From the NCBI GenBank assembly GCA_949751835.1, contig CATKHK010000005.1, positions 682,001 to 746,000 of the forward strand: DNA of 64,000 nt, in the 5' to 3' direction. The notes beneath the pieces are model-generated. The model saw nothing but the letters and a program-made list of their open reading frames with translations. It searched no databases and had not been told where the DNA came from. This document shows positions 7,713-56,980 of this stretch, piece after piece (positions within the stretch are counted from its first letter, which is position 1; each line of letters begins with the position of its first letter). Made by a program: the position numbers and the translations under genes. The stretch comes from Blepharisma japonicum (Eukaryota > Ciliophora > Heterotrichea > Heterotrichida > Blepharismidae).

Positions 7713-7780
7713 TGCATGTATGTAATTTGCATCATAATTAATTTTTATAATTAAAAGTGATAGTATTAGTATAAGTGCGT

Positions 7781-8177
7781 TTATTTTAGTAAGCATTGAC
7801 ACAATTTCTTCCATTCCATGCTAAAAAAATTGACACATGGAGGCCTGAAGTGATCAAGCCCAACATAAATATGCCATTTATGAGACAGCAGATAAAGAAA
7901 ATGGTCATGATCAAGATGTCCATGAGGATGTAAATCAGCATCAGGATTTAGCGAAACGGATAATAGATCGTTTTCTCACCTCCAAATCAATAATTGCCAG
8001 AAATTGAATAATCATACTTTTGGTATTTTTCATGAATGAATATATCAGATTCAGGGTGAGACCTGATGTCAAACTATTCAAATAGATTGATTAAAATAGT
8101 CTATAAGGAATCATTGGCTTTTTAATCTCTCTATGCAATAGACAGATTCGGCCCCAAATTTTTTGAGACTCAGGCAT
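7781..8177 (-). pseudogene. Decayed gene remnant, about 130 codons
   Basis: The minus strand carries coding-like text split over frames. It opens with an ATG at 8175-8177 (MPESQKIWGRICLLHRE), is interrupted near 8080-8095, continues in another frame (RSHPESDIFIHEKYQ, then GNYWFGGE with a UGA Trp), and shifts again at a short A-run near 7985 into a His-rich end (DADLHPHGHLDHDH, SHKWHIYVGLDHFRPP) that runs to TAA at 7781-7783. No 15-16 nt GT-AG intron bridges the shifts. Each piece has clear protein composition but I do not know the family. A decayed duplicate is the best reading; an assembly indel is possible. Confidence 0.5.
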
Positions 8178-8560
8178 CTTAAAGCAGTAATATTAAAGTA
8201 TCATACATTATAAGACGAAAATAGCTTTGCTGGATAAGCATATTAAACATTTATTACAACTACATTCAATACTTTCATTTCCTTCTTTTCTCTAACATCC
8301 ATAAATAAGTCTCACATGTAATTAAATTTCTGCCATCTATAAGACTCTCTTACGTCACAATACTCTATGGATTATTTTTTCAATAACCCTATAAAAATTT
8401 TACCTCTATTAACACAATAATTATAGCAACAACTCACATAGCAGTCATCTCCCCTTAAAAAAAAAGAAAATAAGGCTTCAAAATATTTCCAGTTTAATTT
8501 TGAATTGAGAAAATGGATTCCTTCAGACTGTTGATACCTAAATAATTGTAATAATACTCA
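8178..8560. other. AT-rich intergenic region upstream of SNF1-like kinase
   Basis: About 380 nt with many in-frame stops in all frames and no supported feature. The last part must contain the 5' leader of the kinase at 8561. Confidence 0.5.
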
Positions 8561-10166
8561 ATGTAAAATCCACACAGGTCACGCTCAAGCAGTATCTCTC
8601 GTAACCGCACATCATCCACACACTCCAAAAGTATAGGACAATACATTATAGGTAGAACAATTGGCGAAGGTACATTTGGAAAAGTAAAACTCGGCACTCA
8701 CATTTTGACTAACGAAAAAGTGGCTGTCAAAATCCTTGAAAAAGACAGAATCAAGGACGCTTCAGACATAGAGCGAGTTTCCAGAGAAATAAAAATCCTG
8801 AAAATGCTGAGATTTCCACACATCATCCAGCTGTATGAAATTATTGAAACTCCTAAACAATTATACCTCATCATGGAATTTGCCAGCGGTGGGGAGCTTT
8901 TTGATTACATTGTAGCCAGAAATAAAGTAAATGAGCCTCAGGCGTGTATTTTTCTTCAACAGATTTTATATGGAATTGAATATCTCCATAAGTTAGGGGT
9001 TGTTCATAGAGATTTGAAACCAGAAAACCTCTTGTTAGACGAAGAAAAAAATATAAAAATTGTGGATTTTGGGCTAAGTAACACTTATAAGCCTGGAGAA
9101 ACATTAAAAACAGCCTGTGGAAGCCCATGTTATGCTGCCCCAGAAATGATTGCAGGAAAGAGATATATTGGCAGTCAGGTTGATATATGGAGCTGTGGGG
9201 TAATTTTATATGCAATGCTGTGTGGGTATTTACCATTTGAAGACCAAAACACCGCCACTTTATACAAGAAAATCAGAAGTGGGGAGTATAAAGTGCCTAA
9301 ACATCTTTCTTTGGAAGCTATTGATATTCTTAAAAGGATTTTGAATACAAACCCTGAAGAGAGATATACGGTTGAGCAGATTAGAGGACATCCTTGGTTT
9401 AAAAAGAATGCGTCGTATACAAGGAGAGTAGATGATAGCAAAATTACTATAAATCAAGAAGCCTTGGATGGGCTTGTAACTTTTGGGATTGATATAGATC
9501 ATGCACAAGATAATATATTGCAGGGGAGGCATAATAATATTACAGCGACCTATTACTTGTTATTAAAAAAGCAGAAAAATGAAGCAAAAGCACCTAAGTC
9601 GCCTTCAAACCAAGAAAAAAGTGTAGTCCAAGCTTTTCATGCGCCTCATCCTCATCCTCCGCCAAGACCTATTATTACAGAAAACCAACCAATTAACCCT
9701 AAAATAAAAAGACTTATAGAAAACCAAAGAATAGAAAGCACAGGAGGAAGCTCATCAAGAGAAATGGATCTTGCTGCAAAAACTCAGGGAATTTCTACAA
9801 TAATCACAGGACGTGACCGTAATAATTCTTCTCTTATAAAACCATCTCCAAATACAAGAGTTTATGCTGCATCAGTATCTCCTATCAGTCGCCGGGATAA
9901 TTCTACTTTTAGAAATAACGAAAGGCATGTCCCGAAAGAGCCTGAAAAGCCTAAGCCAAGCATCACACCTCGTCCAATCCGTAATTTTTATTCTAGGAGG
10001 CCGCCAATATAAAAGAAGAGAAAGAGTTAAGACCCCAGTCACTTATAATGTAGATCTCTACACTACTCTTAACCTGTCCATCAAACATAGTCCACGAGCT
10101 GGAACTTCTATTGGGATTCAAAGACCTCGTAGAATTGAATCCAACGAATTTTCTTATAAATTTTAA
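8561..10166 (+). CDS. SNF1/AMPK-type protein kinase, two tiny introns
   Basis: The coding sequence is 8561-8562, 8578-9980 and 9997-10166, 524 residues. Removing a 15-nt intron creates the start codon (AT|G) and an N terminus MSRSSSISRN that leads into IGRTIGEGTFGKV. Motifs: K52 (VAVK), HRDLKPEN with D146, DFGLS, activation loop LKTACGSPCYAAPE whose T179 matches AMPK Thr172, and a UBA-like autoinhibitory segment at about 305-345. The family is the energy-sensing kinase that pairs with beta and gamma subunits. After the UBA the tail is Pro/Ser-rich; I do not see a clear KA1 domain. A 16-nt intron near the end replaces a short C terminus with about 57 further residues. The frame closes exactly (1575 nt). 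AMPK-related kinases such as MARK are the alternative. Confidence 0.88.
8563..8577 (+). other. 15-nt intron splitting the start codon
   Basis: The intron gtaaaatccacacag has GT-AG ends and lies between AT and G of the initiation codon. Unspliced RNA reads ATG then TAA at once, and no other ATG in frame lies between the upstream stop and the kinase domain, so this splice decides the start. Length matches heterotrich introns. Confidence 0.8.
9981..9996 (+). other. 16-nt intron in SNF1-like kinase
   Basis: The intron gtaatttttattctag lies after the first base of a codon. Splicing joins the kinase frame to an open stretch reaching TAA at 10164-10166. Retention runs into TAA at 10010-10012, giving a shorter tail. 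Confidence 0.75.
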
Positions 10167-10214: not shown

Positions 10215-12233
10215 ATGGAAAATAAAGAAGATTTCGCAGGAACCTTTTATAGTAATTTAAGATCACTAATTACTCTTGTAGACCACTTAAGAGATGCAGG
10301 GCTTCAAAAATATATAAAACTGCCAAGAATTGTAACATTGGGACTTCAGAGTTCAGGTAAAAGTTCAGTTCTTGAGTCTATTGTAGGGCTAAATTTTTTG
10401 CCGAGAAGTGAAGGAGTTTGTACAAGGCGACCTTTAGAGCTGAGACTGGTCCATGAAGAAAACCAAGTGCAGCCATGGGGCATTTTTGAAGGAAATTCTA
10501 CGAAATATACCGAGTTTGAAAAAGTCAGAGAGCAGATTGAAAGGTTAACAGACGACAGAGCAGGAAGAAATAAAGGTATTATAGACGACCCTATTATACT
10601 TACAATCCATTCTTCTACTTGTCCAGATCTTACCTTAATCGATCTCCCAGGCATCACCAGAATTCCTGTAAAAGGAAGTGATCAGCCAGCAGATATTGAA
10701 AGAATTACCAAAGAAATGGCTTATAGGTACATTACAGACCCAAGAACTATTATTTTGTGTGTGATTGCTGCCAATTCTGATATCAGCACAAGTGAGTCGT
10801 TATTAATGGCAAATAAAGTTGATAAGAGCGGGATCAGAACTTTAGGAGTTATCACCAAAATTGATATTATGGACAGAGGCACAAATGCTAAAAAAGTAAT
10901 TTTAGGGCAAGAAGTTACGCTAAGACTAGGCTTTATTGGTGTAAAAAATAGATCTCAAGAAGACATTAACAATAATGTCAAAGTGGGGGCAGCTTTAAGA
11001 GAGGAGCAAGAATATTTTGCACAACACCCTGTATATTCAACTATGCCGCCTGGATATCTCGGCACAGATGTCCTTACTCAGAGGCTGACTCAGATTTTAT
11101 TTAACCATATAAAACATTTTTTACCAGAAATTCTCAAAGAAACTATGTATAGGATCAAGGATTGTGAGGATAAAGTAAAAGATCTTGGCCCAAGTACTCC
11201 AGTTGAGCCAAAACAAAAAACTCAAATGCTGTGGAATATGATCACAGACTACTGTGAAACTTTTAAAAATACAATTAGAGGCAAATTTGAAAGGAGAGGG
11301 AATTCAAGAATTGCTAAAGATTTGGCTGGAGGAGTTACAATAAAACACTATTTTAATACTCTGCTAGAGGATTATTCTGGGAATTATAATGCTACTGAGG
11401 ATTACAGTAATGAAGAAATTCAAAGAATTATGGCACAACATGAAGGAGATAATATTCCTGGATTTCCGTCTGTAGATGTGTTACTGTTTTTGTTGCAACC
11501 TCAGCTGGAAATGATTAAAGGGCCTGTTTTGGACTGTTTAAATAATGTGCATTCCTATTTAGACCAGCTTTCACATAAAATTATAGAAAGGGTTTTTTAT
11601 AGGTTTCCATCTTTGGTAGCGGAAATTGGAGATATTTCGTCTCATGTTTTAATTAAAGAGAGAGAAAACTGCAGAATCATTGTTGAAGAGTTAGTGGATT
11701 CTGAAGAAGGATATATTTTTACTAATGATGTGGAATATTTAGCGAAAAGAACTGATTTGATACCAAAAAGTGATAATAAAGTCCCAAAAACCCCAGAAAG
11801 TTTATTTGTGGACGAGATCAGGAGTCGAATTGATACTTATTTTAGGATTGTAGTAAGAAATGTAAGAGATACAGTACCAAAAATCATTGGCTATTTCTTA
11901 GTAAGATCAGTAATGGATAAAATGCAAATGCAGCTTTACGAAGCAATTAATAGAAGCGAAACAGTGCTAAATTTACTTAGCGAGCCTGCTCACATTACAA
12001 CTGAAAGAGAAAACATCAGAAAGCAGCTTTCAACATTAAGGAAAGCAGAGAAAATACTAAAACATGATCCAAATCTTGCTTTGCAAGCAAATTCAATTGA
12101 AGATGAAATCAGTAAAATTGAAAGTGAAGCAAGCGAAAGTGGAACTGCAAAGAAAATAGCAGAAGAAAAGAAAAAGCCGGAAGACGATGTAAGGCCAAGT
12201 AAAACACCGTCCAAGGGACTTTTTTCATCATAA
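10215..12233 (+). CDS. Dynamin-like GTPase, DRP1 type
   Basis: A complete 672-residue dynamin without introns or UGA codons. G1 is GLQSSGKS (43-50), switch-I threonine T70 in CTRRP, G3 DLPG (143-146) and G4 TKID (214-217). The stalk (middle) domain and a GTPase effector region near 540-640 follow. There is no PH domain or proline-rich tail between them, so it resembles mitochondrial/peroxisomal DRP1 or vacuolar dynamin-related proteins rather than endocytic dynamin. Such proteins assemble as helices that sever membranes. The last 50 residues are Lys/Glu/Ser-rich. It starts 49 nt after the kinase gene on the same strand. Ciliates have several DRPs, so the exact membrane is uncertain. Confidence 0.93.
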   Translation: MENKEDFAGTFYSNLRSLITLVDHLRDAGLQKYIKLPRIVTLGLQSSGKSSVLESIVGLNFLPRSEGVCTRRPLELRLVHEENQVQPWGIFEGNSTKYTEFEKVREQIERLTDDRAGRNKGIIDDPIILTIHSSTCPDLTLIDLPGITRIPVKGSDQPADIERITKEMAYRYITDPRTIILCVIAANSDISTSESLLMANKVDKSGIRTLGVITKIDIMDRGTNAKKVILGQEVTLRLGFIGVKNRSQEDINNNVKVGAALREEQEYFAQHPVYSTMPPGYLGTDVLTQRLTQILFNHIKHFLPEILKETMYRIKDCEDKVKDLGPSTPVEPKQKTQMLWNMITDYCETFKNTIRGKFERRGNSRIAKDLAGGVTIKHYFNTLLEDYSGNYNATEDYSNEEIQRIMAQHEGDNIPGFPSVDVLLFLLQPQLEMIKGPVLDCLNNVHSYLDQLSHKIIERVFYRFPSLVAEIGDISSHVLIKERENCRIIVEELVDSEEGYIFTNDVEYLAKRTDLIPKSDNKVPKTPESLFVDEIRSRIDTYFRIVVRNVRDTVPKIIGYFLVRSVMDKMQMQLYEAINRSETVLNLLSEPAHITTERENIRKQLSTLRKAEKILKHDPNLALQANSIEDEISKIESEASESGTAKKIAEEKKKPEDDVRPSKTPSKGLFSS

Positions 12234-19691: not shown

Positions 19692-21815
19692 ATGGAAAGT
19701 TGTCCTCATCTCTCTGGTGTTACTTTAAACAAGCAATTATCAAAATTTTCACAAGGCAGAGTTAAAGACCAAATAGAGACTGGCACACTATTTTGTGATG
19801 CCTGCAGTATTGGGCTTCCCAGCTTATGGCTTTGTTTAAATGTAACACACATATAGGATAATTGCAACTTTGTTGGCTGTGGACGGTACCAAAACAAGCA
19901 TTCTATGATGCATTTTCAAAATTCCAAGCATCCTCTTTATATAAATCCTAGAAGCTGCATGATTTGGTGCTTAGATTGTGACACAGAAATCATAGATGGT
20001 GAAAACGAATACCAAGAAAAGTTAAGAGGGATTCGCGCAATTTTTTCAAAGCAAGAAGAAGAAAATGGAAACAAGCCAAATGGCAATCCTGAGAGCAAAG
20101 GAAAAATTGGACTGAAAAACTTAGGAAATACTTGCTATATGAATTCTGTTTTACAGTGTTTAAGCAATATCAGAGCAATTCAGAGATATTTCAGAAAGGT
20201 TTTCATGGTAGAAGATTTTAAAGATTCAGAAACTCCTGACTTTTCTTTAGTAGCAAAATTTGCTGAGTTAATAAGAGCGCTGTGAAGCGGATCTTATACA
20301 TCCCTCAGCCCTAGAGATTTTCTTTCAAGTTTACATAAGTCATGTCCGTTTTTTAAGGGTATGGGTCAGCACGACGCTCAAGAATTTTTACGAATTTTTT
20401 TAGATAAAGTCCATGAAGCCTTAAAGCACCAATATATAAATGCTGCATATCGCTCCATCGTTTCTGACGCTTTTAAATCAAATATTGAAAGCAAAGTAAC
20501 TTGCCTTCAATGCCAAGCCTCCTATACCAAAATTGAAGATTATTATGATATTGCTTTACAAATCCCAAGCCAGCAAGAAAGTGAAGATTTTCGGAAATAT
20601 GACAGCCAGCTACTTTCTCCTGCTGAAAGAGTGAAATTTAATACAGAAAAGCAAAATATGTGAAGAAAAATATCCAAGGTCTTTTCTGGAGATTCTGTTG
20701 TAACTTTATATGACTGCATTCTGAATTTTTGCTTACCTGAACAGCTTAAAGGAGATGATAAATTTTTTTGTGAGAAATGTAGGAGGAAAACAAAAAGCCA
20801 GAGGGAATTTAGAATAATAAATCCTCCAAATGTATTAGTTTTAGTCGTAAAAAGGTTCAAATTTATGGGAATTGGCTCAAAAGTGTCAACTTATGTAAAA
20901 TTTCCAAAAGAGCTTGATTTAAGGTACTTTTTGCAGAAACCTAAAAGCTGTATTTATCATCTTAATGGAATGGTCCAACATTTCGGAGGAGTAGGAGGAG
21001 GACATTATGTTTCTTATTGCCATAACTACAGGACTAATATTTGGCATGAGTTTGACGATTCCCGTGTTCGACAAGTCCCAGAAAGCTACGTTTTAGAAAA
21101 GGAAGCTTATATCCTTTTTTACCAAAAATCCATGCCTAGTCTTAGAGAAAAAGTTACATCCCAAGAGCCTTGTATGTATATCCCAACCTATTGGCTCAAT
21201 AAATACTACACACTTTCAGACCCTGGCCCAATCTACCAAAAATATCTCCTATGTCCTCACATGAAGCTTAAACCTATATATGGCGCTGCTGAATACACTC
21301 GAATGAACGCAAATCAGCTTTTAAATTTTATGTCAAACTACAATAGTGACACTGGGTCTCCAGAAGTAGTCCAAAAATGTGAAAGATGCGAACAGGATTT
21401 CTATAAAATTGATAACCGCGTTGAAAAGGAATTCGAGCTTTTGACCAATTTAACCTCAATAAAACCTTTTGAAGGGCCGTGGTATATTATTTCTGCAGAG
21501 TGGATTAATAAATGGAAAAGATTTTGCTCACATGATATAGGAGAAGATAATGGGTATCCTGGCCCTGTAGATAACTCAGTACTATTTGAAGGAAATAATG
21601 TAAAAAGAGGCCTGGAAAAATCAAAACACTATAGAGGAGTTAATAGACATGTGTGGTATGCTTTTATGGAAATTTATGGAGGAGGGCCGACTGTTTGTAG
21701 GCAGGTTTTAGATATTTATACAGCACCTTCGCAGGAGATTAAATGCTCAACTCCCGATATTAGTGATGAGGCAATGCAAAGTATAAGGGCGATTAAGAGT
21801 ATAATTCGGCTTTAA
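19692..21815 (+). CDS. Ubiquitin-specific protease, USP20/USP33 type
   Basis: Coding sequence 19692-19841 and 19857-21815, 702 residues. Order of parts: an N-terminal ZnF-UBP (C4, H6, CDAC 35-38, C53, C58GR, H65), the cysteine box GNTCYMN with C143, a Zn ribbon inside the catalytic domain (CLQC, CEKC), the histidine box GGGHYVSY with H433, then DUSP-like segments near 470-560 and 590-690. This order matches USP20/USP33, which trim ubiquitin from membrane and signalling proteins. Without the 15-nt intron the zinc finger is broken by a stop, which supports the splice. UGA-Trp occurs twice in the catalytic domain. USP3/16 are less likely because of the C-terminal DUSPs. Confidence 0.88.
19842..19856 (+). 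other. 15-nt intron in the ZnF-UBP of the deubiquitinase
   Basis: The intron gtaacacacatatag lies between codons (phase 0), after N50 and before D51. Retained, it would add V-T-H-I and then TAG. Splicing restores the spacing between the zinc ligands CDAC and C53. Confidence 0.85.
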
Positions 21816-24745: not shown

Positions 24746-26884
24746 TTACGATAAATATTTGCTAGGATGGCTTCCACGTCTATGTTTATCAACTTTTTCT
24801 GTGAGTACTTCATACTGGTTGTTAATCCACCCTTCTTCATGTTTAACAAGAACAGTCTGATTTCTTGCAACTAATCTTCGAGCATTTCAATAAGCTTCAT
24901 TCTGCTTCAGCTGATTTATTATATTTTCTTCAATATCTCTCGAATTTACAACATTGTTCATAGCCGAAAATAGAGGCAGTGCAATATTTTTAATAAACCC
25001 AGACTGAGACTTGGCTATATCAGTCGTTTCTTTGTCACAGTACATTGAAACAGGCAACCCCAATGATTTTTCTATGTCACCTTGTGTAAAAAACTCTTGG
25101 AGTACCAGGACACACCATTTTTCGTGCAATTCAATAGACTTTGCGGAATGGCCAATATCAGCCATTTTTATTGTCATTTTATTCATTTCTTGTCTAATTT
25201 CAACATTGGCAAAATCAACAGGGACGTTAGCTCCTACAAATCTTGCTCGGAAATGCTCTACTAAGTCGAAATGCTTTGACATATCAGTAGCAAGAATAAG
25301 CTCTATAATAACTTTTCTGATAGTAAAGTACTTATCACCAGGCAAGTTTGATAAGATATTATATTCATTTTTTGCTAAAATTTGAAACAAAATGGTTGAA
25401 TGCATCATTTCTAATACACTAAAATCATTATATTGGATAGAAACATCACTTTTAGTTACCATCAAAAATCGGTTGGTCTTTGCAGGATGGCCTACATCGT
25501 GTGCTAAGGTTGAAATAATCCCAGCCAATAGCTCTAAAGAACTGGTTTCATCAATTATAGCGCAGCTGTGGATTATGTAGAGATATGAGCACATCACATC
25601 AGCGGCGTGACAAGAATTGTGATAAGGGTTCGGCAGATATTTTCCTTCTAATTCTTGCAGAAAAGAACTCAGCAGCCGATCGCTGATAGAAAAGAGCTCG
25701 TGGAGGCTTAATCGTTTTATTATATGCATTCCTATAACTTGTATAGGAGTTTGCCCAGAGCAGTCTCCTATAAACATAGTATTAAAATTCCATTCTTTTC
25801 CAATTTGGCGTAGAATTCCTGAAAGTTCAGACATACCATAAATATGGTTGAGTTTTTCTTTAAAATTGCCTTTGGATCCTAATGAAGCTGCATCTACGTC
25901 AGATGATCTTTCAAAAAATACTTGAGAAACATGAATTTTATCTTGTTCGTCCATATTTTTTGTAATTTGGTCAAAAGAGGTCTGATATATATTTCTGTGG
26001 CTTAATGAGTCTAACGCACCCTTTAAGTTAGTTATAGTTGCCACAATGGTTTCTTTATTTCCATACTCTGCATGCTCAAATGCGTCAAAAAGAACTGTTA
26101 TTGAATTTTTAATAGCGTTTATTATAGTTTCCATGCCTGTAGAGGATTTTGTTTGGATATCATGCAGTTGGAGTGAAGGCAATATTGACTCCTGAGCATA
26201 ATCAGCTTCCCTTCCTACTTTAGCAATAGCAGGATAATCAATTAGTCCGAAGAAAATGGCTAAAAAAAGAAGTAAAATTTGAAATATTGAAATCCCGATA
26301 TTTTGCTTCCCAAAGCAGTTTAACCCAAATGCAATAATAGATAAAAAAATACTAATAGATATATATATCACTTTTTTGGTTTCCAATATTTTTGGCCCAA
26401 TTACAAATAATAGTAGCAATGCCTGCATTCCTGGCAAATATGAATCATTTTTATCTTCCCTATAAATAACAGGGAAAATATTGAGGTCTGATAATATAAA
26501 AGACAACCCACAGTAAATGTAGAGCGTTGGCATTATTCACCTCTTCCCTTCGTCTTGGAAATTGTCTCTTTGTCTATATATAATGACCACCAAATTGATT
26601 AAAAAACTGCTTATAAGAAAGATAAGACAGAGGAGAACTGTGGTTACATCGTTTTGGTATACAGAATTTGAAGTCAGAGTGCTGGACAGGTAAATCATAA
26701 ATAAAATACAATACCCAACACAAGCTTTTACGGTGTCTCTGTACTTAGGACCAATAGATGCTAAATTTTGGTTTGTTGAATTATTAAGGAAATCGTTTGA
26801 GTCAGATTGGTTGTGTGAGGCTTCTATGATATTGATTGCTGTTGATGAGTGCTCTTGAGGCCTGCTAGGCTCAGTATTTCTCAT
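24746..26884 (-). CDS. Membrane-bound cyclic-nucleotide phosphodiesterase
   Basis: 712 residues. About six hydrophobic helices occupy residues 50-215 (for example VTTVLLCLIFLISSF and ISIFQILLLFLAIFFG). The class I PDE domain is C-terminal with the metal-binding HD residues: H422 in NPYHNSCHAADV, H463-D464 in LAHDVGHP, LATDMSKHF, and D576 in MADIGHSAK. The enzyme should hydrolyse cAMP or cGMP at a membrane. No GAF or PAS domain lies between. A UGA-Trp joins the first TM part to the second (26537-26539); another (24887-24889) adds a 47-residue Lys/Arg-rich tail after the usual domain end. Six-helix PDEs are known in ciliates and apicomplexans. Specificity cannot be read with confidence. Confidence 0.88.
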
Positions 26885-28923: not shown

Positions 28924-29997
28924 TTATTTAAAAGCTTTTTCTACCTCTTCCATTGTTGATGCTTGAGGCAATCCAAAATATTTTTTCACTTGTCCTATTA
29001 TTCGGTGACAAGATCTTAATTGGGTATTTAAAAACTCAATGGTACTAGGAATAGATTCGCTGTCTATGCATTGAAGGTCCCTTTGTATATTTTTTACAAT
29101 TTCGGCTTTTTGTCTTAACTGAGCTCTTTCATCTGCTAAATTACTTATTCACCTTCATATATCTTCTCGAGAAAAATTTGATTCCCCATTCATTTTCATA
29201 ACTTCTTTGAATTTCGCTATAACTTTTTTCCATTTACATTTCTTTCTATGTTTTATTAAGTTCCTAACCTTTTCAATCAATTCTGAGTGATGTACTTGCA
29301 AAGTGTTTGAAACTTCATTAATCATATCCTTTCAATTGGTTTTTTCTGATGGATATCTTCGAGATAATTGCTCATCTAAGGATTCTTCTAAAGAGAAAAA
29401 CCTTTTATTTAACTCTTCAATCTGTCTAGAATTTGCATCGATGCATCTTTTACTATTCGATTTTAATTCTTCAATTTGCCGACGGAGACGAGCTCTTTCA
29501 CCTTGAAGATTGAGAATAAGCTCTTCTCTGTCATTATATTTTTCTCGTAAAGCATTTAGTTCCTTTAATATTACAAATTTGTCTTTTTCATGGGTGAATT
29601 TTATTGTAGTATCTTCATCTATAGGAATTTGTCTTGAGCTCAGCAGTTTTTCTAATTTTTCAATGTTTTTTTCTTTTTCTTCAATAATTATTTTTAAATT
29701 TTCATTTTCCCTCAAAAGTTTATCCCTTTCTCTAAAGCAATCTGTTAGCTTATTTTCTAGTGCAAGATTATTATCATAAGTTTCATCATGAATTGTGCTC
29801 ATTTCTTTCAATATTTTTTCCTTTTCAGCTAATCTTTGTTCTAACTGTACAACTCTATCATTTTGATATCCGACTGCAACATTTGGCTTATAAATTACAG
29901 ATTCTTCAAATGATGAATCAATTTTTGCGTCGTCAGCCGTCATAAATGAAGCATTCTTCAAAAAATCAATCATGCTTTGACTGTTAGAAGCTGCCAT
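28924..29997 (-). CDS. Coiled-coil protein, 357 aa
   Basis: Residues about 45-215 are a long coiled coil (VVQLEQRLAEKEKILKEM, LLRENENLKIIIEEKEKN). Past a UGA-Trp at 29332-29334 the frame continues with a helical, possibly globular part containing three more Trp codons, ending FGLPQASTMEEVEKAFK. No family is recognised; centrosomal or axonemal scaffold is a guess from the coil. It is divergent from the IQ-protein gene at 30089 with only 91 nt between the starts, which suggests a shared promoter. Confidence 0.65.
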
Positions 29998-38147: not shown

Positions 38148-40169
38148 TTAGACTATTTTTCTGTTTATTCTAATCAGTCATTGGTTTAACAGATCTCTTA
38201 TATCTTTTGCTGGGGGTCTGCTTTCTGGATTTAGCTCCCAAATTGCTTCAAATAAATTTACGATTTGTGGAAGATGCTTTTTGAAGCTTTCTGTAAGTTC
38301 AGGTCTTTTATTCTCTTTTTCTATTATCTTACAAAATTCTTCTGGCTCAGTATCACTTTTATTAGCCTTTTTTAGATAGTCAAACGGCTTTCTTTGCACA
38401 ATAAGAGCATATGATGTCATCCCAAATGATCAAATATCAGCACTTTGTCTTGGATTTTCCCCTTTTATGTGCTCTGGTGCGCAGTAATTTGTAATGAAGC
38501 CTGGCTTTACTGAAAATCCTTCTCTCATATGCTCGCTCATGCCGAAATCCCCAATTTTTGGAATATAATCATCATCAAAAAATATATTTTGTGGTTTGAT
38601 ATCAAAATGGCAAATATTCTTACCATGCATGAACTCTAAGCCATAAGCAATCCCTAATAAAAATCCAAGCCTTTTAGGAAGATCCTTTTCTGGGGAATTT
38701 TTAATATAATCACTTAGCGTGCCCTTTGAGCAGTATTCAATAACCAAGCCATATTTATTGTTATAGAAAACATACCCATAGCATTTTGTGATGTTTTCGT
38801 GGCATAAATTTTTCATTATACTCAATTCTTTTTGAAACCTGAGCTGGGCCTTTATATCATTTTTTGTGTCCTCTTTTGCAAATTTTATAGCAACTTTGGT
38901 ACCATGAAGCTTGTTCTTGTAAACTTCCCCAAACCTTCCCTTGCCAATTTGCAGTTCATCCTCAGTTAAAGATGGGAATTTAAAATCTTCAGAAGAAATT
39001 GTTTCAAAGCTAGACAATTCATAATTGGGGTGAAAAAAATTGTCCAAAATTTTTAATTGAAATTCCATGTAATAACTAAAGAGGTCATTTTTATAATCAC
39101 TAGGCCTTAAAATCTCGATTTCATCAATATCTCTGATCTTAGCTACTTTATCGATATCATCACTTACCAAGAAAAAGTTAAATCCTTCAGCTTTTGTTCC
39201 AAAAATAATAACATTTTGAAAAGGAAATTTAAAAAACTCCAAGCGATACTGATACATTTTTGTGAGAATTAATAAAATCTCATCTAGCAAACCATCTTGC
39301 AAATCTTCTATTTCTAAAAATTGGCAAAGAGGCATACAAAAAAAATCGGAACAATGAGCTATTTGCATTTCATTGACACTATTTCTAAAAAAAGCTTTTA
39401 AATTTGGATTTTCATTGATAAAGTTTAATGCATAATAATCTTCTGATGTGTTATGGGAATTATTTTCATATTCTGTTATGCAAGAATCTGATAATTCTTC
39501 ATTACTGTCAGAATCTTCTTCTTTGTTCTCTTCTTTTCTAAAATTGTGAGATGATACTTCTTCTTCCGTTTCATCTCAACTACTATCGCAAGAATAAGAT
39601 CTTTCGTTGCTATTTCCTAACTTTGTTTGATAGATATTTGCTTTAATTCATTTTTTGGGTATTTTATTTGATTCCTCGATAAGCGCATAAAACTGCTGGA
39701 CACGATCGTTATAAATACTGGCAGCTTTTTTGATATAAGGACAAATTAAATTTTGGACCTCTGCGATATCCAGCTTCTTATACCAAATTGCCAATTCTAA
39801 CAGCAGAGTATTAAATTTCTCATTAATGTTGAAAAAACCTAAATCGAGATCTAAATTTATTAATGAAATCAATTTTAAGGCTTTTTCCATAAGATTGATA
39901 TTAGAAAATTTGTAGGGCTCGTTTCTGATAGTAAAAAAAACTTTGAATCGTATGGAGTCTTCACTGATCACCACAAAAATAAAAAACCCTTTTAGACTTT
40001 CAATATTTTGTTTTTGGTTTAAAATGCATAGCCTAAAAGTAAAACTTTTGGGGTTATCGTAATGCTTTATAATAGAACTTGAAAAGTATTTTGAGGTGGT
40101 CGTTTTTGTTGCATTTATCATTTGATTCATTTCATCTGAATGATTAAAACTCGCAATTATCCTTTCCAT
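38148..40169 (-). CDS. TKL-like protein kinase, array copy A
   Basis: 673 residues, read through UGA-Trp codons. Order: N-terminal domain 1-170 (see copy B), acidic linker about 180-250, middle domain about 250-395, kinase from about 400. The glycine loop is GKGRFGEV (the other copies have GG), VAIK lysine and HFDIKPQN, DFGMS and APE are all present. The Arg of HRD is Phe. A last UGA-Trp (38178-38180) extends the C terminus by about ten residues beyond LLNQ to TAA. It differs from copy B in 3 of the first 50 residues (counted by eye). TKL assignment rests on the loop and APEHIKG wording. Substrate unknown. Confidence 0.8.
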
Positions 40170-41206
40170 CTACAATTTTTATTATTGAATTCAAGATGTA
40201 TTTTGCATCATATGAGCAGTCGCAAAACATATGATGTGAATTGCACCTTATTTCATTAGCCAATTTAATCTATTCTTGTCAGAAAGACATTAATGCTAAA
40301 TGGTAATTTGAAGATCTCCTTTTACCATATGTTTACAATAACCCTCTTAAAACTAAAGTTGATCGGAAAAATTCATATATCTTCACACACTCCAGATGAA
40401 TTAAATTTCCTAATTTTATCAGAACCAAATTTTAAGATGAATTAAATTCTCTAAATTTATAAATTTTAAGAATCTAATTTTTAATACCCTAGCTTTTCCC
40501 TCCAGTTTAAATATTTACATCAAATCAGTTTTGAACACCCATTCAAAATATTCCCTTTTCAGGATCTAGCTAACCTTTATTATTCAATTATAATTATTTT
40601 CTTATAATTTATCTATTCTTTACACTTTTCGCCCTAATTTCAAAATACTTGGCCTCCTATAAAATTTTGATATTTTAAATTTTTAAGTTAAAAATTTCTA
40701 AATATATTATAATTATGAAATTAATGATTTTGGGAGCTTTAGTTTTTAGACTAGTTGATTTTTTGAAAATTAAAAATAAATAATTAAGGCTAAATTTAGT
40801 AGGAGATGAATGAGATTATAGCTTGTAAAAGATATATATTAAATTTCGAGTTCTATACTTTTAAATTTATAAATTATATAATTATTCATTAAATATATTT
40901 TAATATAATAATTTTCATAATGAAATCTCTAAGATCTTTTAGGGAGATGGAGCTGCAGAGTGGTAGAATCACTATTTGGTTATAATTTTTTCGTTATTAT
41001 AAAATTTAGGAGATAAATTCAAGATGTTTTATCTATTAGGTAATTTCTTTACTAGAGAAGCAGGATGCCTGGAAAAATGTATGATATAAAAGTATCGCTT
41101 AATTTTTTACTTTTGAATTTAACATTTCTTCCTCTTTAAGTTCAATCTTATTAGTTTCGTTATTAAAGACTTAGAAAAAGATTCAAATAATATTTTATAA
41201 TTAGTG
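40170..41206. other. Spacer between kinase copies A and B
   Basis: About 1 kb of AT-rich DNA. Its right part (40931-41206) is the 3' flank of copy B, almost the same as 37873-38147. The left part (40170 to about 40880) matches the 5' flank of copy C. No open frame. Confidence 0.65.
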
Positions 41207-43237
41207 TTAGCTAGCATTTACTACTTTTCTGTTTATTCTAATCAGTCATTGATTTAACAGAGCCCTTATATCTTTTGCTGGGGGTCTGCTTTCTGGATTT
41301 AGCTCCCAAGTTGCTTCAAATAAATTTACGATTTGTGGAAGATGCTTTTTGAAGCTTTCTGTAAGTTCAGGTCTTTTATTCTCTTTTTCTATTATCTTAC
41401 AAAATTCTTCAGGCTCAGTATCACTTTTATTAGCCTTTTTTAGATAGTCAAACGGCCTTCTTTGAACAATAAGAGAATATGATGTCATCCCAAATGATCA
41501 AATATCAGCACTTTGGTTTGGATTTTCCCCTTTTATGTGCTCTGGTGCGCAATAATTTATAGTGAAGCCTGGCTTTACTGGAAATCCTTCTCTCATATGC
41601 TCGCTCATGCCGAAATCCCCAATTTTTGGAATATAATTATCATCAAAAAATATATTTTGTGGCTTAATATCAAAATGACAAATATTCTTACTATGCATGA
41701 ACTCTAAGCCATAAGCAATCCCTAATAAAAATTTAAGCCTTTTAGGAAGATCTTTTTCTGGGGTATTTTTAAGATATTCACTTAGCGTGCCTTTTGAGCA
41801 ATATTCAATAACCAAGCCATATTTATTGTTATAGAAAACATACCCATAGCATTTTGTGATGTTTTCGTGGCATAAACTTTTCATTATATTCAATTCTTTT
41901 TGAAACCTGAGCTGGGCTTTTGCATCATTTTTTTGGTCCTCTTTTGCAAATTTTATAGCAACTTCGGTACCATGAAGCTCGTTCTTGTATACTTCCCCAA
42001 ACCCTCCCTTGCCAATATGCATTTCATCTTCAGTTAAAGATGGGTATTTAAAATTTTCAGAAGAAATTTTATCAAAGTTAGACAATTCATAATTGGGGTG
42101 CATAAAATTGTCCAAAATATTTGATTGAAATTCCAAGTAATAACTAAAGAGGTCATTTTTATAATCACTTGGCTTTAAAATCTCGATTTCATCAATATCT
42201 CTGATCTTAGCTACTTTATCGATATCATCACTTACCAAGAAAAAGTTAAATCCTTCAGCTTTAGTTCCAAAAATAATAATATTTTGAGTAGGAAATTTAA
42301 AAAATTCCAAGCGATACTGATACATTTTTATCAGAGTTAATAAAATCTCATCTAGCAAACAACCTGGTAAATCTTCTATTTCTAGAAATTTATAAAGATG
42401 CATACAAAAAAATTCTGGACGGTGGGCTATTTGCATTTCATTGATACTATTTTTGAAAAAAGCTTTTAAATTTGGATTTTCATCAATAAAGTTTAATATA
42501 TCATAATCTTCTGATGTGTTATGGGAATTATTTTCATATTCTGTTGTGCAAGAATCTGATAATTCTTCATCATTGTCAGTATCTTCTATTTTACTTTCTT
42601 CTTTTATCATATTGTGAGATGATACTTCTTCTTCCGTTTCATCTCCACTAGTATCACAAGAATTAATTTTTTTCTCCTCGTTTCCTAAATTTGTTTGATA
42701 GATATTTGCTTTAATACAATTTTTTGGTACTTTTTTTGATTCCTCTATAAGCACATAAAACTGCTGGACGTGATCGTTATAAATATAGGCAGCTTTTTTG
42801 ATATAAGGACAAATTAAATTTTGGGCCTCTACGATATTCAGCTTCTTATAACAAATTGCCAATTCTAACTGCAGAGTATTAAATTTCTCATTAATGTTGA
42901 AAAAGCCTAAATCGAGCTCTAAATTTATTAATGAAATCAATCTTAAGGCTTTTTCCATAAGACTGATATTAGAAAATTTGTAGGGCTCGTTTCTGATAGT
43001 AAAAAAAACTTTAAATCGTATGGAGTCTTCACTGATCACCACAAAAATAAAAAACCCTTTTAGACTTTCAATATTTTGTTTTTGGTTTAGAACGCATAGC
43101 CTAAAAGTAAAACTTTTGGGGTTATCGTAATGCTTTATAATAGAACTTGAAAAGTATTTTGAGGTTGTCGTTTTTGTTGCATTTATCATTTGATTCATTT
43201 CATCTGAATGATTAAAACTCGTAATTATACTTTCCAT
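41207..43237 (-). CDS. TKL-like protein kinase, array copy B
   Basis: 676 residues; the first 579 are open without any UGA, so this copy gives the cleanest view. Residues 1-170: a conserved N-terminal domain with beta-rich wording (SFTFRLCVL, GFFIFVVISEDSIRFKVFF) and then ALRLISLINLELDLGFFNI, which recalls the YbjN/type III chaperone-like fold. Acidic linker 190-250; middle domain 250-395. Kinase: GKGGFG 409-414, K429, E448, H521-F522-D523, K525, N528, DFG 541-543, APE 564-566, W580 (UGA). All catalytic residues are present, but HRD is HFD (non-RD), so activation-loop phosphorylation may not control it. The tail ends NRKVVNAS. Function unknown. Confidence 0.82.
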
Positions 43238-43712
43238 CTACAAAAATTATTATTAAATGTTATTTTATCTTAAATTATCTGAGCATGATATGAATTTCTC
43301 ATTAGCTCATTTGCTAATATTGCCTATTCTTGTCAAAAAGAAAGATGTTAATGCTAAAATTTTAATTTTTAAAATATCCTTTACCACATGATGCTTGTAA
43401 TAACATTCTTAATAAAAATTTAATTTGGCCTTTAGGCCATCAAAAACAATCATATTCTAATAATTCTTGGGGCTTAAGATGTTTTAGGGAGATGGGCCGT
43501 GGGCAATCTTTCGCTATAATAAAAAATAGGAGATAAGATCAGGATATTTTATTCTATTAGGTTATTTTCTTACTTAAGAAGTTGGATATTTGAGAGAATT
43601 AATGGTATAAAAATATCGCTTAATTTTTGACTCTGAGTTTGAATTTTTCATCCCCTTTAAGTCAAATCTTAGTTTCACTATTAAAGATTTGAGAATGATT
43701 TTTAGTTATATT
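43238..43712. other. Spacer between kinase copies B and C
   Basis: About 475 nt. The first part is a shortened form of the 5' flank of copies A and C; from about 43475 it is the 3' flank of copy C, with conserved phrases such as gtataaaaatatcgcttaa. No gene. Confidence 0.6.
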
Positions 43713-45749
43713 TTATAATAAAATATTATCCAGCATTACCTCTTTTTTTATAATAATTTTCAGCAGTCATTGGTTTAACAGAGCCCTTATATCTTTTGCT
43801 GAGGGTCTGTTTACTGGATTTAGCTCCCAAGTGCTTTCAAATAAATTTACGATTTGTGGAAGATGTTTTTTGAAGTTTTCTGTAATTTCAGGTCTTTTAT
43901 TCTCTTTTACTACTTTCCTTCAAAATTCTTCTGGCTCACTATCACTTGTATTAGCCTTTTGTAGATAGTCAAACGGCCTTCTTTGCACAATAATATCATA
44001 TGATGTCATCCCAAATGATCAAATATCAGCACTTTGGTTAGGATTTTCCCCTTTTATATGCTCTGGTGCACAGTAATACGTTGTGAAGCCTGGCGTGACC
44101 TGAATTCCTATCCTTAAATGTTCGCTCATGCCGAAATCAGCAATTTTTGGAATAAAATTATCATTCAAAAATATATTCTGTGGCTTGATATCAAAATGGC
44201 AAATATTTTTACAATGCATGAACTCTAAACCACAAGCAATACCTAATAAAAATTCAAGTCTTTTAGGAAGATCCTTTTCTTTGGTATTTTTAATATAATC
44301 ACTTAGTGTCCCTTTTGAGCAATATTCAATAACCAAACCAAATTTATTTTTATAAAAAACGCACCCATAGCATTTTATGATATTCTCATGACATAAATTT
44401 TTCATTATACTCAATTCTTTTTGAAGACTAGATTGGGCTGCTGAATTGTTTTCTTTTACCTCTTTTGCAAATTTTATAGCAACTTTGATTTCATGGAGCT
44501 CGTTCATGTATACGTCCCCAAACCCTCCATTGCCAATATGTAGTTTATCATCAGTTAAAGATGGGAATTTAAAATTTTCAGCTGGAATTACATCAAGGTT
44601 AGACACTTCATTAATGGGATGTATGAAATTATCAATAATTCTTAATTGCAGTACTGAATATAAACTATAGAGGTCATTTTTATAATCCACAGTCTTTAAA
44701 ATGTTGATTTCATCAATATCTCTGATTTTGGCTACCTTATCGATATCATCACTTACAAAGAAAAAGTTAAATCCTTCATCTTTTGTTCCAAAAATAATGA
44801 CATTTTGAGAAGGAAACTCAAAAAACTCCAGACGATTCTCATATATTTTCGTTAGGGTTAAAAAAATTTCATCTAGCAAATCATCTGGCAAATTTTCTAT
44901 TTCTAAAAATTGATAAAGAGACATACAGACAAATTCGGGATAGTGAGATCTTGACTTTTTATTGTCACTATCTCTAAAAAAAGCTTTTAAATTTGAATTT
45001 TTATTGATAAAATTTAATACATCATTATCTTCTGATGTATTTATGGGGTTATTTTCGTTTCTATAATCTGGCCATTCTTCATCACTCTCAGAATCTTCTG
45101 CTTTACTTTCTTCATTTCTCAAATTTTTATGAGCTACTTCTTCTTCCGTTTCATCTTCACTAGAATCTCTAGGTCTAATTTTTCTGTAGTTATCTCCTCA
45201 ACTTGTTTGATAGACATTTGCTTTCATAAACTTTCCAGATGCTTTATTTGGTTCCTCTATAAGCATATAAAATTGCTGGACATGATCGTTATAGATACTG
45301 GCGGCTTTTTTGATGTAAGGTAAAATTAATTCTTGGACTTCTTTGGTATTCAGCTTCTTATAACAAATGGCTAATACTAGCTGGATAAAATTAAATTTCC
45401 CAGCAATGTTGAAAAAACCTAAATCGAGCTCTAAATTTATTAAAGAAATCAATCTTAGGGCTTTTTCCATAAGATTGATATTAGAAAATCTGTAGGGCTC
45501 ATTTCTTATTGTAAAAAAAGCTTTGAATTGAATGGAGTCTTCACTGATCACTAGAAAAATAAAAAATCCTTTTAGACTCTCTATCTTTTGTTTTTGATTT
45601 AAAATACATAGCCTAAAAGTAAAACTTTTGGAGTCATTGAAACTCTTTATAATAGATCTTGAGAAGATCGTTGAAGTGGTGCGTTTTATGGCATCTATCA
45701 TTTGATTCATTTCATCTGAATGGTTAAAGCTCGTAATATTCGTTTCCAT
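43713..45749 (-). CDS. TKL-like protein kinase, array copy C
   Basis: 678 residues over UGA-Trp at 45198-45200, 44019-44021 and near the end. Same order of parts as copies A and B. Glycine loop GNGGFGDV, VAIK, HFDIKPQN, ADFGMS and APE are kept; the linker and the middle domain differ most. It differs from copy B in about 14 of the first 50 residues (counted by eye). The C terminus runs on as LLKIIIKKEVMLDNILL, different from copies A and B. It is the oldest-looking branch of the array and appears functional, since all catalytic residues and the frame are intact. Confidence 0.8.
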
Positions 45750-51925: not shown

Positions 51926-54900
51926 TTATTTGCTATTCGAATTCTGTAGTCTCTCTTGATATTTTTTGACATTATCATCTAGATTTAGCATGCAATGGTC
52001 AATTTCAGGGCTAAGCCAAATATTTGCACACTCCCATAGTGGTTTCACAATTACAGAAATGAAATTTATTTCATTCTTATAATAGTTTAATGGATCGTCA
52101 AGACCTTTCATAAATTCAGTTTGAGGCAAGCCATACTTTCCTTCATCTGCATATTGATTTGAAAATTCATTGCATACAAGTAGTGACCAATACGAAAACA
52201 CATCAAAATCTTTAGCTGGGTGAGCTAAATCTGACAAATGTATGACTAAGGAAGCTATTTTTTCACAATCATCATCTAATGACCCTAATGGATGGTCTTC
52301 CAAGTCCTTAAACCTTGACGCCATTGATGAAATCATATTAAAATGTTTTACCATATCTGTGCTTAAAATTGATTCTATAATTAATTTTCTCACAGCTTTA
52401 TAAATATCGTTGCTTAAAAAATCAAAAATATTGTTATTGCCATTTTGAAGAATCTGGAATGTTAATGCCGCATGATGATTTTCAAGCACAGATTTATCAT
52501 TATATACTATTGCATAGTGAGAACTTCTATTGACTTCAAAAGCATTATTATGCCCGGTATGCCCTAAATCATGGCATAAAGAAGCGATAAGTAGTGCATA
52601 TATTTCATGGTCAGAGAAGATATTTGATACTTTGGTTGTTGCCATAAGATAATAGGTAGAGTGCATTACGGTAAATCCATGATAAAAGTTGTGGAAAGGA
52701 TTTTCATGATAATTCATCCTTACTTCACTGACAAAAGCTTTAAGTTTGGTAATGTTTATATTGAACTGAGTTGTAAACTTAAAGTCTCTTAGCATTGCAA
52801 CAATATATAAGAAATGATCCTCAACCTCAAAAGCATTTAAGCTTCAGTTTCGTAAGGACTCAATATCGACTTCTAGCTCTTCTACTTCAAAAAATGACGT
52901 TTCAGATCTATTTGTAAAGGTGCTTAAAACAGAACTTCTCCTATCTACTGTGTCAGGAATTTCTACATATTCGTTTATATAGCTTTTCAGCTCAGGCTCT
53001 ATAATTTCGTTTTCTCCTAGAAAAGTAACTTCAGCCCTATCTAGATTTCCTCTCTTAAGTATATTGATTACATCTGTGAGCTGTGCAGTATTATCTGAGG
53101 ACAATTCTATATCTTGTGTAATTGCTGTGAGTTTATCTATACATCTTTGTAAAGAAGTTTCTGTTTTGACTGGGTTATTAGTGAGATCATAAAGTTGTGA
53201 TTGCATATCTTTCAGCCTTGTGCTGAGTTCTTCAATTTCGCTTGCGTCTTCTAAAATTACTATGACACCAGTAGAAGAATCATTCATAAAATCTTGGAGA
53301 GGAACAAGTGTATAGTTAAATATTGAGCTCACTGATGGGCTTTCTTGCAATTCTGGGAATATTGATTTTCTTGTCACAGGAGAAATTTTTTGGCTTTTTC
53401 TATGTATTCTTCGATAAGGATAATTATAAATAGAAGTTACGTCCAATACCAACTGCCTATTGAATTCCATCCATTTTTGATATGCAAGCTCTTTAGCTGC
53501 AGCTTCAGTCACCCCGAAAATATTTTCAAAAGGTCTGTTATTATATTCAAGCATTCCGTCATTGTTAAGGACCAGCACATAATGCCCAATACTGTTTAAA
53601 ATATTTGCAAGGGCAGTTCTTTCCTCAATATTTTTTTGGAAAAGTTTCCAGTTCTGCAAAATAAACGAAATTAATTCAGAAAAAACTTCTAAAGTGTCTT
53701 CATCATATTGGTCAAACTCCCCTCCTCTTTTATTAATCATTTGCAGAGCAGCAATTACATTACCTTGATAATCTAATACGGGCGTGCACAACATTGTGGA
53801 TGTTTTAAAGCCTGTAAGACGGTCTACTTCTGGGTTAAATCTTGAATCAGAATATACATCTTTAATATTTTCAGCTTGGCCAGTCTGAGCGACATATCCA
53901 GCAATGCCTTTTCCTAAAGGAATTTCGAACCCCATAGGTATTTCTTGCTCAAGACCCTGGGATTTTATTACCAAATTATCGCCTTCTCTGAGAAATACAG
54001 TCCCTCTATCACAATCTAGCAGATTTTGTGCTACACTTCTTATGGTGCTTATCAAGCTTTGTGTATCCATCCCAACTGCATAATGCCTTATAATTTTCCT
54101 GAGCTCTGAATTTTCTGATTTTCCATCATTTGTTTTTGGGCTTATTGCAGAAAAAATATATTTTCCTAATTCTTTAATTTTAATTTCATCTTCTCGTGTA
54201 TAGGTCACATAAAGCGAATAAGTCTCATCCTTTTTATTCCAAGCTTTAATTATTAAAGATTTCCCATCTTTTCTTATAGGGATATATAAAATGTTTTCTT
54301 TCCCTTCAATGTGATTAAATACAGCTGGTTTTTCTGACTCAGCAAGTCTAGCAAAGAAATCTTCTTGTTTTTTATTAAAAATCATGCTCAATTTATTTTC
54401 ACTTATTTGATACATTGTGTAATTAAGCTCTGAAATCCATATACAGCTTGCCCCTTCAGATCCTGAGAGTGCTTTAATAACCTCTAGTGCAATAGATATC
54501 AATGAATCTGTATCATTATCATTAGCAAGCCTTCTTAAAAGATCAACAGATAGCACCTGTGAAAATTGAGCATAATTTGTGGTTTCTGTAATCTGCTTAA
54601 ATGACCGTAGCAGCATTTTATGTTTTCTTCCTTCTTTTAATATAGTTTGTCAATTATTCTCTGTTGTAACCTTCATTTGGAGAATTTCTCTAGAAATCAC
54701 TGATAAATATTGGGCAAAAATTATGTCATCTATTGGGAAATTTTCTGGAGAGTTTACAAAGCAGATTACTCCATCTACACCGCTGCTTAAGCTAGAAATA
54801 GGGATACATAAAAATGAGTTTATTTGGTCTTGAACCCCTAAAGAGTCTATATGAACGTCGAATTTTCGATGAGAATAAGCTTTTTCTTTCAAAAGCACAA

Positions 54901-56980
54901 TTTCGTTATCCACAATGGACTGCTTGACTAATCCTGAATTTTTAAGCAAATTTTCATTTAAAATATCAAGTAAGGTCCCATCAGTGCTATATTTCAGCAA
55001 CATGCAGGCTGCTTGACAAGGTATAGCAGACTGCAAATTTTTAGCAAAAGATTTTAAGCTATTTCCTGAATTTTCTATTAATTCTTGGTATTGTGATAAT
55101 CTCTGCAATTTTTCCCATGGGACAAGATTTATATGGAATAATGCTTCAATTGCAGAGTTTTTTGTAATGATATTTTTTATCTCGACTGAGTCTATTAATT
55201 TATTTTTTGAGGCCTGTCTTCTATGATTAATTGGGAGCTGATTAACTGACTTAGAATTTAGCCTTCTAAAGCCAGATTTTGGGGAGACTGATCTTTCTTG
55301 AGGTTGAAAAGGATTCGCATCGATTATCAAGCCAGAAGCAAAAAGATTGTCAAGAATTGTTGATAATTTATTTGAAAAATTCGTCAAGAGGTTTATTTCG
55401 TCATTCTTAAATTCACTAGGTGTTCTTCTTACCACGATTATCCCAATTACTCGTTTTTCTGTCAAATTCCCTAAAATTGGAATTGATAGTACACAGCTTT
55501 CTCTATAAATATCGATATCAGAAATATTCATTGCTGCACTTGAAGGAAAAATTACTGTTTTTTCAGAAAAAAAGGTTAAGCCTAGAAGCGAATTTTCATT
55601 TAAAGGGTAAGAAATCGTGTCTTGCTTTTGGTCAAGAGTTGTTCACATAGACATTTTTTTGTGGTCAACGATGTAAACTGCACTTGAGTCAAAACAAACT
55701 AGATGCTTCATGCTTTGCTTTATATGGTCAAATAGTAAAGAATAGTCATAAAGTCTCTCAGTATTTAAGGTAAAACATTTCAATGAATTGGCTATTATAG
55801 AAACTTTGTTTGCAACTTCATGAGAAATCCCAGTGAGGCTAATTTCTTGCCATTTTTCATAAGGAATTTCGCCTAAAATTTTTATTAATGATTTTGCGAA
55901 TTTTTCATCTACATCTTTAAATGAGTTTTCCTGCTTAAAAAACTCAGCAACACCTACTAATGTTTTTTCTCGATCAAAAATAGGACATGATAAAATTCCT
56001 CGATAAGCTATATCAATTCTCCACAAAGGCTCTGATCTCAAGTCTTTTATATTTAAAATTCCTTGAGATGTAAAAGCAGCATAATTACTAGTCTGTGTAT
56101 TTATCATAATTTTGCTATCAGATTCTGAATTTATCCCAAAAGAATAGAAAGGATTCAATTTTCTGTCGACATTTATATAAAAAACTCCAGCTTGAGCATT
56201 CAAGCACTCACACATTAACGCTAAATAGTCAGGAGTTAAGGTTTGCTCAGTTTTGACTATTTTTTTGCAAATTTTTAATATTTTTTCTCTTTTTATCATT
56301 TGATTAGATGTTTTTTGGATAAAAGCACCTTCTTCTTCGTTTTTTAAAATTGCATGATTTATCCCTTTCAATTCTCCTAATCTTTTTCTATAATTCAGAA
56401 TCTCAATAAATAATAAACCAGCTGATTGAACCATTAAGACATCATTTACAGTAAAAAACGCTTGAGCTCTCTTTTGGTCAAGCTTATTGTAAAGAATAAT
56501 AACACCTTGCAAATGCAAGCAATCTGCTCCATAAATAGGAATTGCACTCACCGAAAAGGGTTCTTCCATCGAATTCGTCGCTTTGGAGTAAGGCAGCAAC
56601 TTGTCTTGAAAACTCTGATAAAAACCAGAATTTCTGGGATTATTTATGATTTGGTAAATATTTTTCGTAGCCACAAATCCAGGCAGACTGTTTGTATTTA
56701 TGTCAAGATATTGCTTATTTTGCTTTCTTCCAAGTACTTTTAGCTTGTCATCTTCTTTTAATAAGATTTCAACTCAGCTTGCAGAGGTAAGTGTTTTGCA
56801 CTGATAGACTATATCATTTTCTAAATCTTCGTGGTCAATTTTTTCACCTTTAAATAGCTGTGCGAGATTTTTCGTTATTGAAAAAATGATGTCTCCAGCA
56901 CACTGAGGGTTAAAGTTTGTTTTAATCCCTGTACTATCTGGGGCTTGAAGAGATTTTGGCCGATATTCATTAGAAGCCAT
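51926..56980 (-). CDS. Six-GAF/PAS cyclic-nucleotide phosphodiesterase
   Basis: 1684 residues in one frame across several UGA-Trp codons. Approximate order: GAF1 55-215, GAF2 240-375, GAF3 410-580, GAF4 625-775, GAF5 800-955, GAF6 965-1098 (canonical NKRGGEFDQYDED), PAS 1123-1250, helical linker, PDE from about 1396. The PDE has NPFHNFYHG (H1434), CHDLGHTGHNN (D1471), LSTDMVKHF and SDLAHP. The five first GAFs are divergent and I assign them from repeated wording such as SFLCIPIS and ILSCPIFD. Vertebrate PDE2/5/6/10/11 have two GAFs. It should be a soluble enzyme tuned by several ligands. Ends in TAA. Boundaries are rough; GAF count could be 5 or 6. Confidence 0.82.

Follow-up and report, generated by a model that had tools for sequence, protein, structure and literature searches.

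Introns of heterotrich ciliates are described as sharing one compact form, with a stringently conserved GTA at the start, an A at position 10 and AG at the end (PMC9505925). All 8,806 introns annotated in Stentor coeruleus are reported to be 15 or 16 nt long (8,173 and 633, respectively), with the branch A at position 10, an A/T content of 75.6% and a bias towards the 5′ end (PMC9505925); heterotrich introns at large are given as ~95% of 15 bp with the remainder of 16 bp (PMC11441545), and Blepharisma stoltei is described as 66% AT, as reading TGA as Trp and as having introns that mostly measure 15 and 16 bp (PMC9942806). According to Nuadthaisong et al., SR proteins were noticeably undetected in Stentor (PMC9505925). 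In other ciliates, Paramecium and Nyctotherus, retention of short introns is reported to tend to stop translation (PMC5014332, PMC2633312), and 5′ UTRs of 14 Nyctotherus genes extend over 8–44 nt (PMC2633312). The start codon is an unusual intron position, which is already documented in other organisms: 47 genes of Yarrowia lipolytica are listed in which the first coding exon contributes nothing but the A of the ATG (PMC2911113), and in GenBank data from vertebrates, arthropods, fungi and plants, introns that interrupt the start codon are characterised as relatively rare (PMC1626468). The hexamer AUGUAA has a described function of its own, since in the 5′-UTR of Arabidopsis NIP5;1 it brings ribosomes to a halt and sets off decay of the mRNA as part of the boron response (PMC11915504).

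In the window, by which we mean the whole 64-kb stretch of DNA analysed, the start codon of an AMPK/SNF1-like protein kinase gene (8561–10166, plus strand) appears to be divided by a 15-nt intron, GTAAAATCCACACAG (8563–8577, plus strand). Its likeness to the introns of Stentor coeruleus and Blepharisma stoltei extends over length, GTA, A at position 10 and AG (PMC9505925, PMC9942806) and, with respect to the 5′ position bias of Stentor, over location too (PMC9505925), while the placement inside the start codon sets it apart; the phrase "start codon" is absent from the main text of both papers. Among the papers listed for ciliates, titles and abstract openings yielded no report of a start-codon intron, and one may exist. 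As in Yarrowia, splicing would assemble the AUG, although the 47 yeast genes are of the A|TG type, whereas the kinase has AT|G and 15 nt, and introns of the yeast are far larger, with a median of 196 nt across all of them; another figure in the same source, 42, includes introns placed after the G, which leave the codon unsplit (PMC2911113). The rare examples in the GenBank data come from organisms other than ciliates (PMC1626468). With NIP5;1 the unspliced kinase RNA would share the identical six bases, but there AUGUAA belongs to the 5′-UTR and the boron response (PMC11915504), whereas here the letters AUGUAA would be confined to unspliced RNA. We consider it highly probable that the element is an ordinary, constitutively spliced 15-nt heterotrich spliceosomal intron, which happens to split the start codon of the kinase.

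The GC content of the window varies between 0.28 and 0.35 in 4-kb steps. Wherever open stretches of at least 70 codons are separated by a single in-frame stop, this stop is TGA (29 of 29 cases, three of which, at 29504, 30756 and 48231, are antisense to called genes by position), and several of the remaining TGAs sit at an expected tryptophan of kinase domains (VDW*AFG, ADI*SFG), so that TGA is to be read as Trp, with TAA and TAG as stops, in the manner of Blepharisma-like heterotrich macronuclear DNA. The same count rules out the standard genetic code, that of Stentor. Training of the gene finder relied on 17,050 codons, including 78 TGA and 90 TGG. Taken with the tiny introns, the TGA code points to a macronucleus of Blepharisma type. 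The finding of the split start is itself independent of the genetic code because the stops involved are TAA, and the kinase frame from 8579 remains open under the standard code as well.

A simple gene finder operating with TGA as Trp called 30 genes in the 64 kb and placed seven introns in them. Three are needed to maintain the frame (8563–8577, 9981–9996 and 19842–19856), and GTAA forms the first bases of all three; those proposed at 5818, 29223, 49696 and 62882 were set aside as unsupported, their frames being open with or without them. Introns of the strict form, defined here as 15 nt with GTA start, branch A at position 10 and AG end, gain independent support from a USP-type ubiquitin-protease gene (19692–21815). 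Its zf-UBP domain covers profile positions 16–60 with 49.9 bits when taken from the downstream exon alone, versus positions 1–60 with 61.3 bits within the N-terminal 216 residues of the protein joined across the strict 15-nt intron at 19842–19856; completion of the domain by the joined exons speaks for such introns being real in the DNA of the window. A search for introns across in-frame TAA or TAG between stretches of at least 60 codons, which detects only introns covering a stop between two long stretches, gave a 15/16-nt GT..AG candidate in one of 22 cases, located on the strand opposite to the dynamin gene. No Rfam family reached its gathering threshold in the window, and a bacterial-code scan returned no tRNA. 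Among other genes, the minus strand carries three tandem kinase genes (38148–45749) of 673–678 residues, whose N-termini share SFNHSDEMNQM and which constitute a recent-looking array, and two genes of cyclic-nucleotide phosphodiesterases (51926–56980 and 24746–26884), one of which encodes 1,684 residues including GAF domains.

The protein encoded at 8561–10166 counts 524 residues with both of its introns out. Pfam assigns Pkinase to residues 24–275 (E 5.6e-82), and in PDB the AMPK alpha chains rank first, with E values reaching 2.7e-96, followed by Snf1 and MARK chains among the best 60 of 2,805 matches, in agreement with the original prediction of a SNF1-like kinase. An AMPK-type kinase domain is present together with an activation-loop threonine (LKTACGSPCYAAPE against LRTSCGSPNYAAPE in the AMPK alpha comparison), which we take to be the site of activation. 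A C-terminal beta/gamma-binding domain is a further feature of the AMPK alpha/SNF1 family, and in this respect the kinase differs from it: for the 249-residue tail Pfam offered nothing but UBA_MELK (E 0.061, 13.8 bits versus a cut-off of 27), PDB gave no convincing match (best E 0.086), and neither recognised a domain of the beta/gamma-binding kind. Since no AMPK regulatory domain was recognised in the tail, we label the gene AMPK/SNF1-like and not AMPK alpha. Pattern scans of viral and prokaryote contigs for relatives returned 11 and 123 matched stretches, respectively, none of them confirmed.

Closer to the 3′ end of the gene a second candidate intron of 16 nt, GTAATTTTTATTCTAG, is located at 9981–9996 (plus strand). 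Its removal would shift the frame and let the protein continue after RPI for 56 codons up to the stop at 10164–10166, giving the 524 residues, and with its retention 10 codons follow, ending in RNFYSRRPPI*, for a product of 478 residues. The tail coding score past this intron amounts to +6.6 nats, whereas the two alternative frames reach −4.8 and −67.4. Spliced and retained forms of this candidate would thus differ in their C-termini. The downstream neighbor of the kinase is the dynamin gene (10215–12233), and upstream of it ~850 nt (7713–8560) are free of called genes, with no Pfam match at E 0.01 for the minus-strand open frames 7781–8242 and 8372–8575.

As to the start codon itself, its first two bases, AT, occupy positions 8561–8562 and the third one, G, position 8578 (both on the plus strand, read from the sequence and recovered by enumeration of starts), exactly as the original prediction stated for a 15-nt intron splitting the kinase start. 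The kinase frame runs from 8579, where TCA CGC TCA AGC follow G8578, and with the 15 nt out it reads ATG TCA CGC TCA AGC..., the protein starting with MSRSSSISRNRTSSTHSKSIGQYIIGRTIGEGTFGKV. RNA read from 8561 with the intron kept is AUG UAA, i.e. M*, which bears out the further claim of a start directly followed by a stop. Upstream of the ATG the spliced frame contains TCA, TAC and then an in-frame TAA (8552–8554, plus strand), two codons separating this stop from the split ATG, so the statement that the frame has no other ATG after the upstream stop proved correct as well. The first downstream ATG in any frame is at 8804–8806 (plus strand), in frame and within the kinase N-lobe. Over the 242 nt after the start the count of ATG is zero for the kinase gene versus 1–9 in the other 29 called genes.

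When possible starts were enumerated backwards between 8579 and 7713, allowing 0–3 introns of 15 or 16 nt bounded by any GT..AG, the procedure left the split start as the single model and revealed no further upstream exon reachable through one to three such introns. The split start therefore lies between the bases of the only usable ATG when introns have these lengths, and within this limit the proposal that splicing alone creates the AUG of the kinase is upheld; once a single intron may measure anything between 12 and 120 nt, one extra model is added, with 48 nt at 8530–8577 and ATG at 8513. The intron form, the uniqueness of the start among heterotrich intron lengths and the AUG-UAA of the putative unspliced RNA are thus properties of the DNA as read. 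It is the reading frame that argues for removal of the intron from the mRNA. With the split ATG the kinase domain begins at residue 19–24, close behind the start, as follows from the top AMPK alpha match being aligned from residue 19, and the best AMPK alpha chains align from residues 3–31 of their constructs. The first 20 codons past the junction have a coding score of −0.94 nats, higher than in either of the other two frames, both of which contain stops; being near-neutral, this score counts against the gene model. Altogether, we regard the gene model with the split start as very likely.

The chance of such an arrangement was estimated from 20,000 dinucleotide shuffles of 8379–8578. Five of them produced a start codon split by a strict intron, and 43 one split by any GT..AG intron; in 65 the start preceded a strict intron, and an unspliced ATG, which the real sequence does not have, appeared in 5,444. 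The strict 15-nt motif occurs at 28 sites in the 64 kb on both strands. Sixteen of these are antisense to called genes or between them, for which reason the motif taken on its own carries little weight, and among the 12 sense sites two are required to keep a frame open. Three of the 28 sites would join a split ATG, and a long open frame stands behind the one at 8561 only (477 codons versus 28 and 3). The weight of the evidence is in the fit of the intron to a gene otherwise left without a start.

Intron strength was scored with a matrix composed from the published heterotrich description and assumed base frequencies, untrained, so its scores are relative only: 7.1 nats for the start-codon intron, 7.5 for the 15-nt intron of the protease and 4.7 for the 16-nt candidate at 9981–9996, compared with 9.1 for the intron most common in Stentor. 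By this measure the strength of the start-codon intron is ordinary. A/T accounts for nine of its 15 bases, making it GC-richer than typical (75.6% A/T in Stentor), and this, along with the score below that of the commonest intron, counts against the ordinary-intron reading. The A at position 10 fits a branch point. The 5′-end bias of Stentor introns and the start-codon introns known from other organisms count in favor of that reading. Under the ordinary-intron reading, the intron would lie between the second and third bases of the start codon, i.e. in phase 2 of codon 1, and the spliceosome would take it out of most transcripts, presumably in a constitutive mode, assembling the AUG. Transcripts retaining it would carry AUG-UAA, lack any further AUG upstream of 8804 in all frames and probably be silent or decay; no working kinase should come from them because the AUG at 8804 falls inside the N-lobe. 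The translational stop expected upon retention conforms to the general pattern of short ciliate introns and therefore provides no evidence of regulation here.

The original prediction went further in proposing that splicing could act as an on/off switch, with the unspliced start-stop form blocking translation. In a regulated switch of this kind the spliced fraction would be controlled, for instance by nutrients, and the AUG-UAA form would block synthesis of the kinase, perhaps via ribosome stalling. The AMPK/SNF1 family is involved in nutrient sensing, and the resemblance of the kinase to this family speaks for such control, as do the exact AUG-UAA of the retained RNA followed by no other AUG until 8804 and the precedent of stalling and decay at the AUGUAA of Arabidopsis NIP5;1 (PMC11915504). 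Nevertheless, AUG-UAA arises automatically wherever an AT|G split meets a GTAA donor. The strength of the intron does not stand out (7.1 versus 7.5 nats for that of the protease), and the flanking RNA shows no exceptional structure (z +1.39), with 190 of 200 shuffles folding at least as well, so that local structure was dismissed as a regulator. The ATG-free 242 nt are the extreme of the 30 genes, yet a single zero among them is only mildly unusual and unconvincing as a sign of selection. We consequently hold a regulated switch to be very improbable. Thus the parts of the original interpretation concerning the assembly of the AUG by splicing, the SNF1/AMPK-like nature of the kinase and the AUG-UAA left by retention stand, whereas the on/off function finds no support. 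A broader version, namely a conserved condition-dependent gate in heterotrichs, in which splicing efficiency would set the presence of the start codon, retained AUGUAA would stall ribosomes or signal decay and the 16-nt intron would add a choice of C-terminus, is likewise a long shot.

Another possibility is that no intron exists at this place, the kinase being translated from a non-AUG start downstream of the in-frame TAA or from ATG 8804 only, and the AT|G fit being accidental. Strict motifs do arise by chance, as their 16 sites antisense to or between called genes indicate, but the complete split structure emerged in five of the 20,000 shuffles, and initiation at 8804 would deprive a well-conserved kinase of its glycine loop and ATP-binding region, which makes this account highly unlikely. 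Another very improbable alternative, a 48-nt intron (8530–8577, plus strand) with a GTTGAT donor and a 3′ splice site common with the 15-nt intron, which would place the start at ATG 8513 and give a protein beginning MDSFRLSRSSS..., is the sole other single-intron model with an in-frame ATG among lengths of 12–120 nt, but its length departs from the 15 or 16 nt reported for all annotated Stentor introns (PMC9505925), for heterotrichs as a group (PMC11441545) and predominantly for Blepharisma (PMC9942806), and its donor does not have the stringently conserved GTA (PMC9505925). The same ATG, 48 nt 5′ of the split start, opens a short upstream ORF (8513–8545, plus strand; 10 codons before its TAA stop), which may not be transcribed, given the 5′ UTRs of 8–44 nt described for Nyctotherus (PMC2633312).

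An ordinary intron in codon 1 would matter chiefly for annotation, since gene finders that rely on a contiguous ATG will shorten or overlook genes of this kind, and the kinase will be mis-annotated at both ends unless its two tiny introns are taken into account. Protein output would be coupled to splicing, given that unspliced RNA lacks a usable start, and the split start could therefore serve as a clean natural readout of how efficiently introns are spliced in a lineage where they are extremely small. Should regulation prove true after all, it would represent a very compact translation gate.
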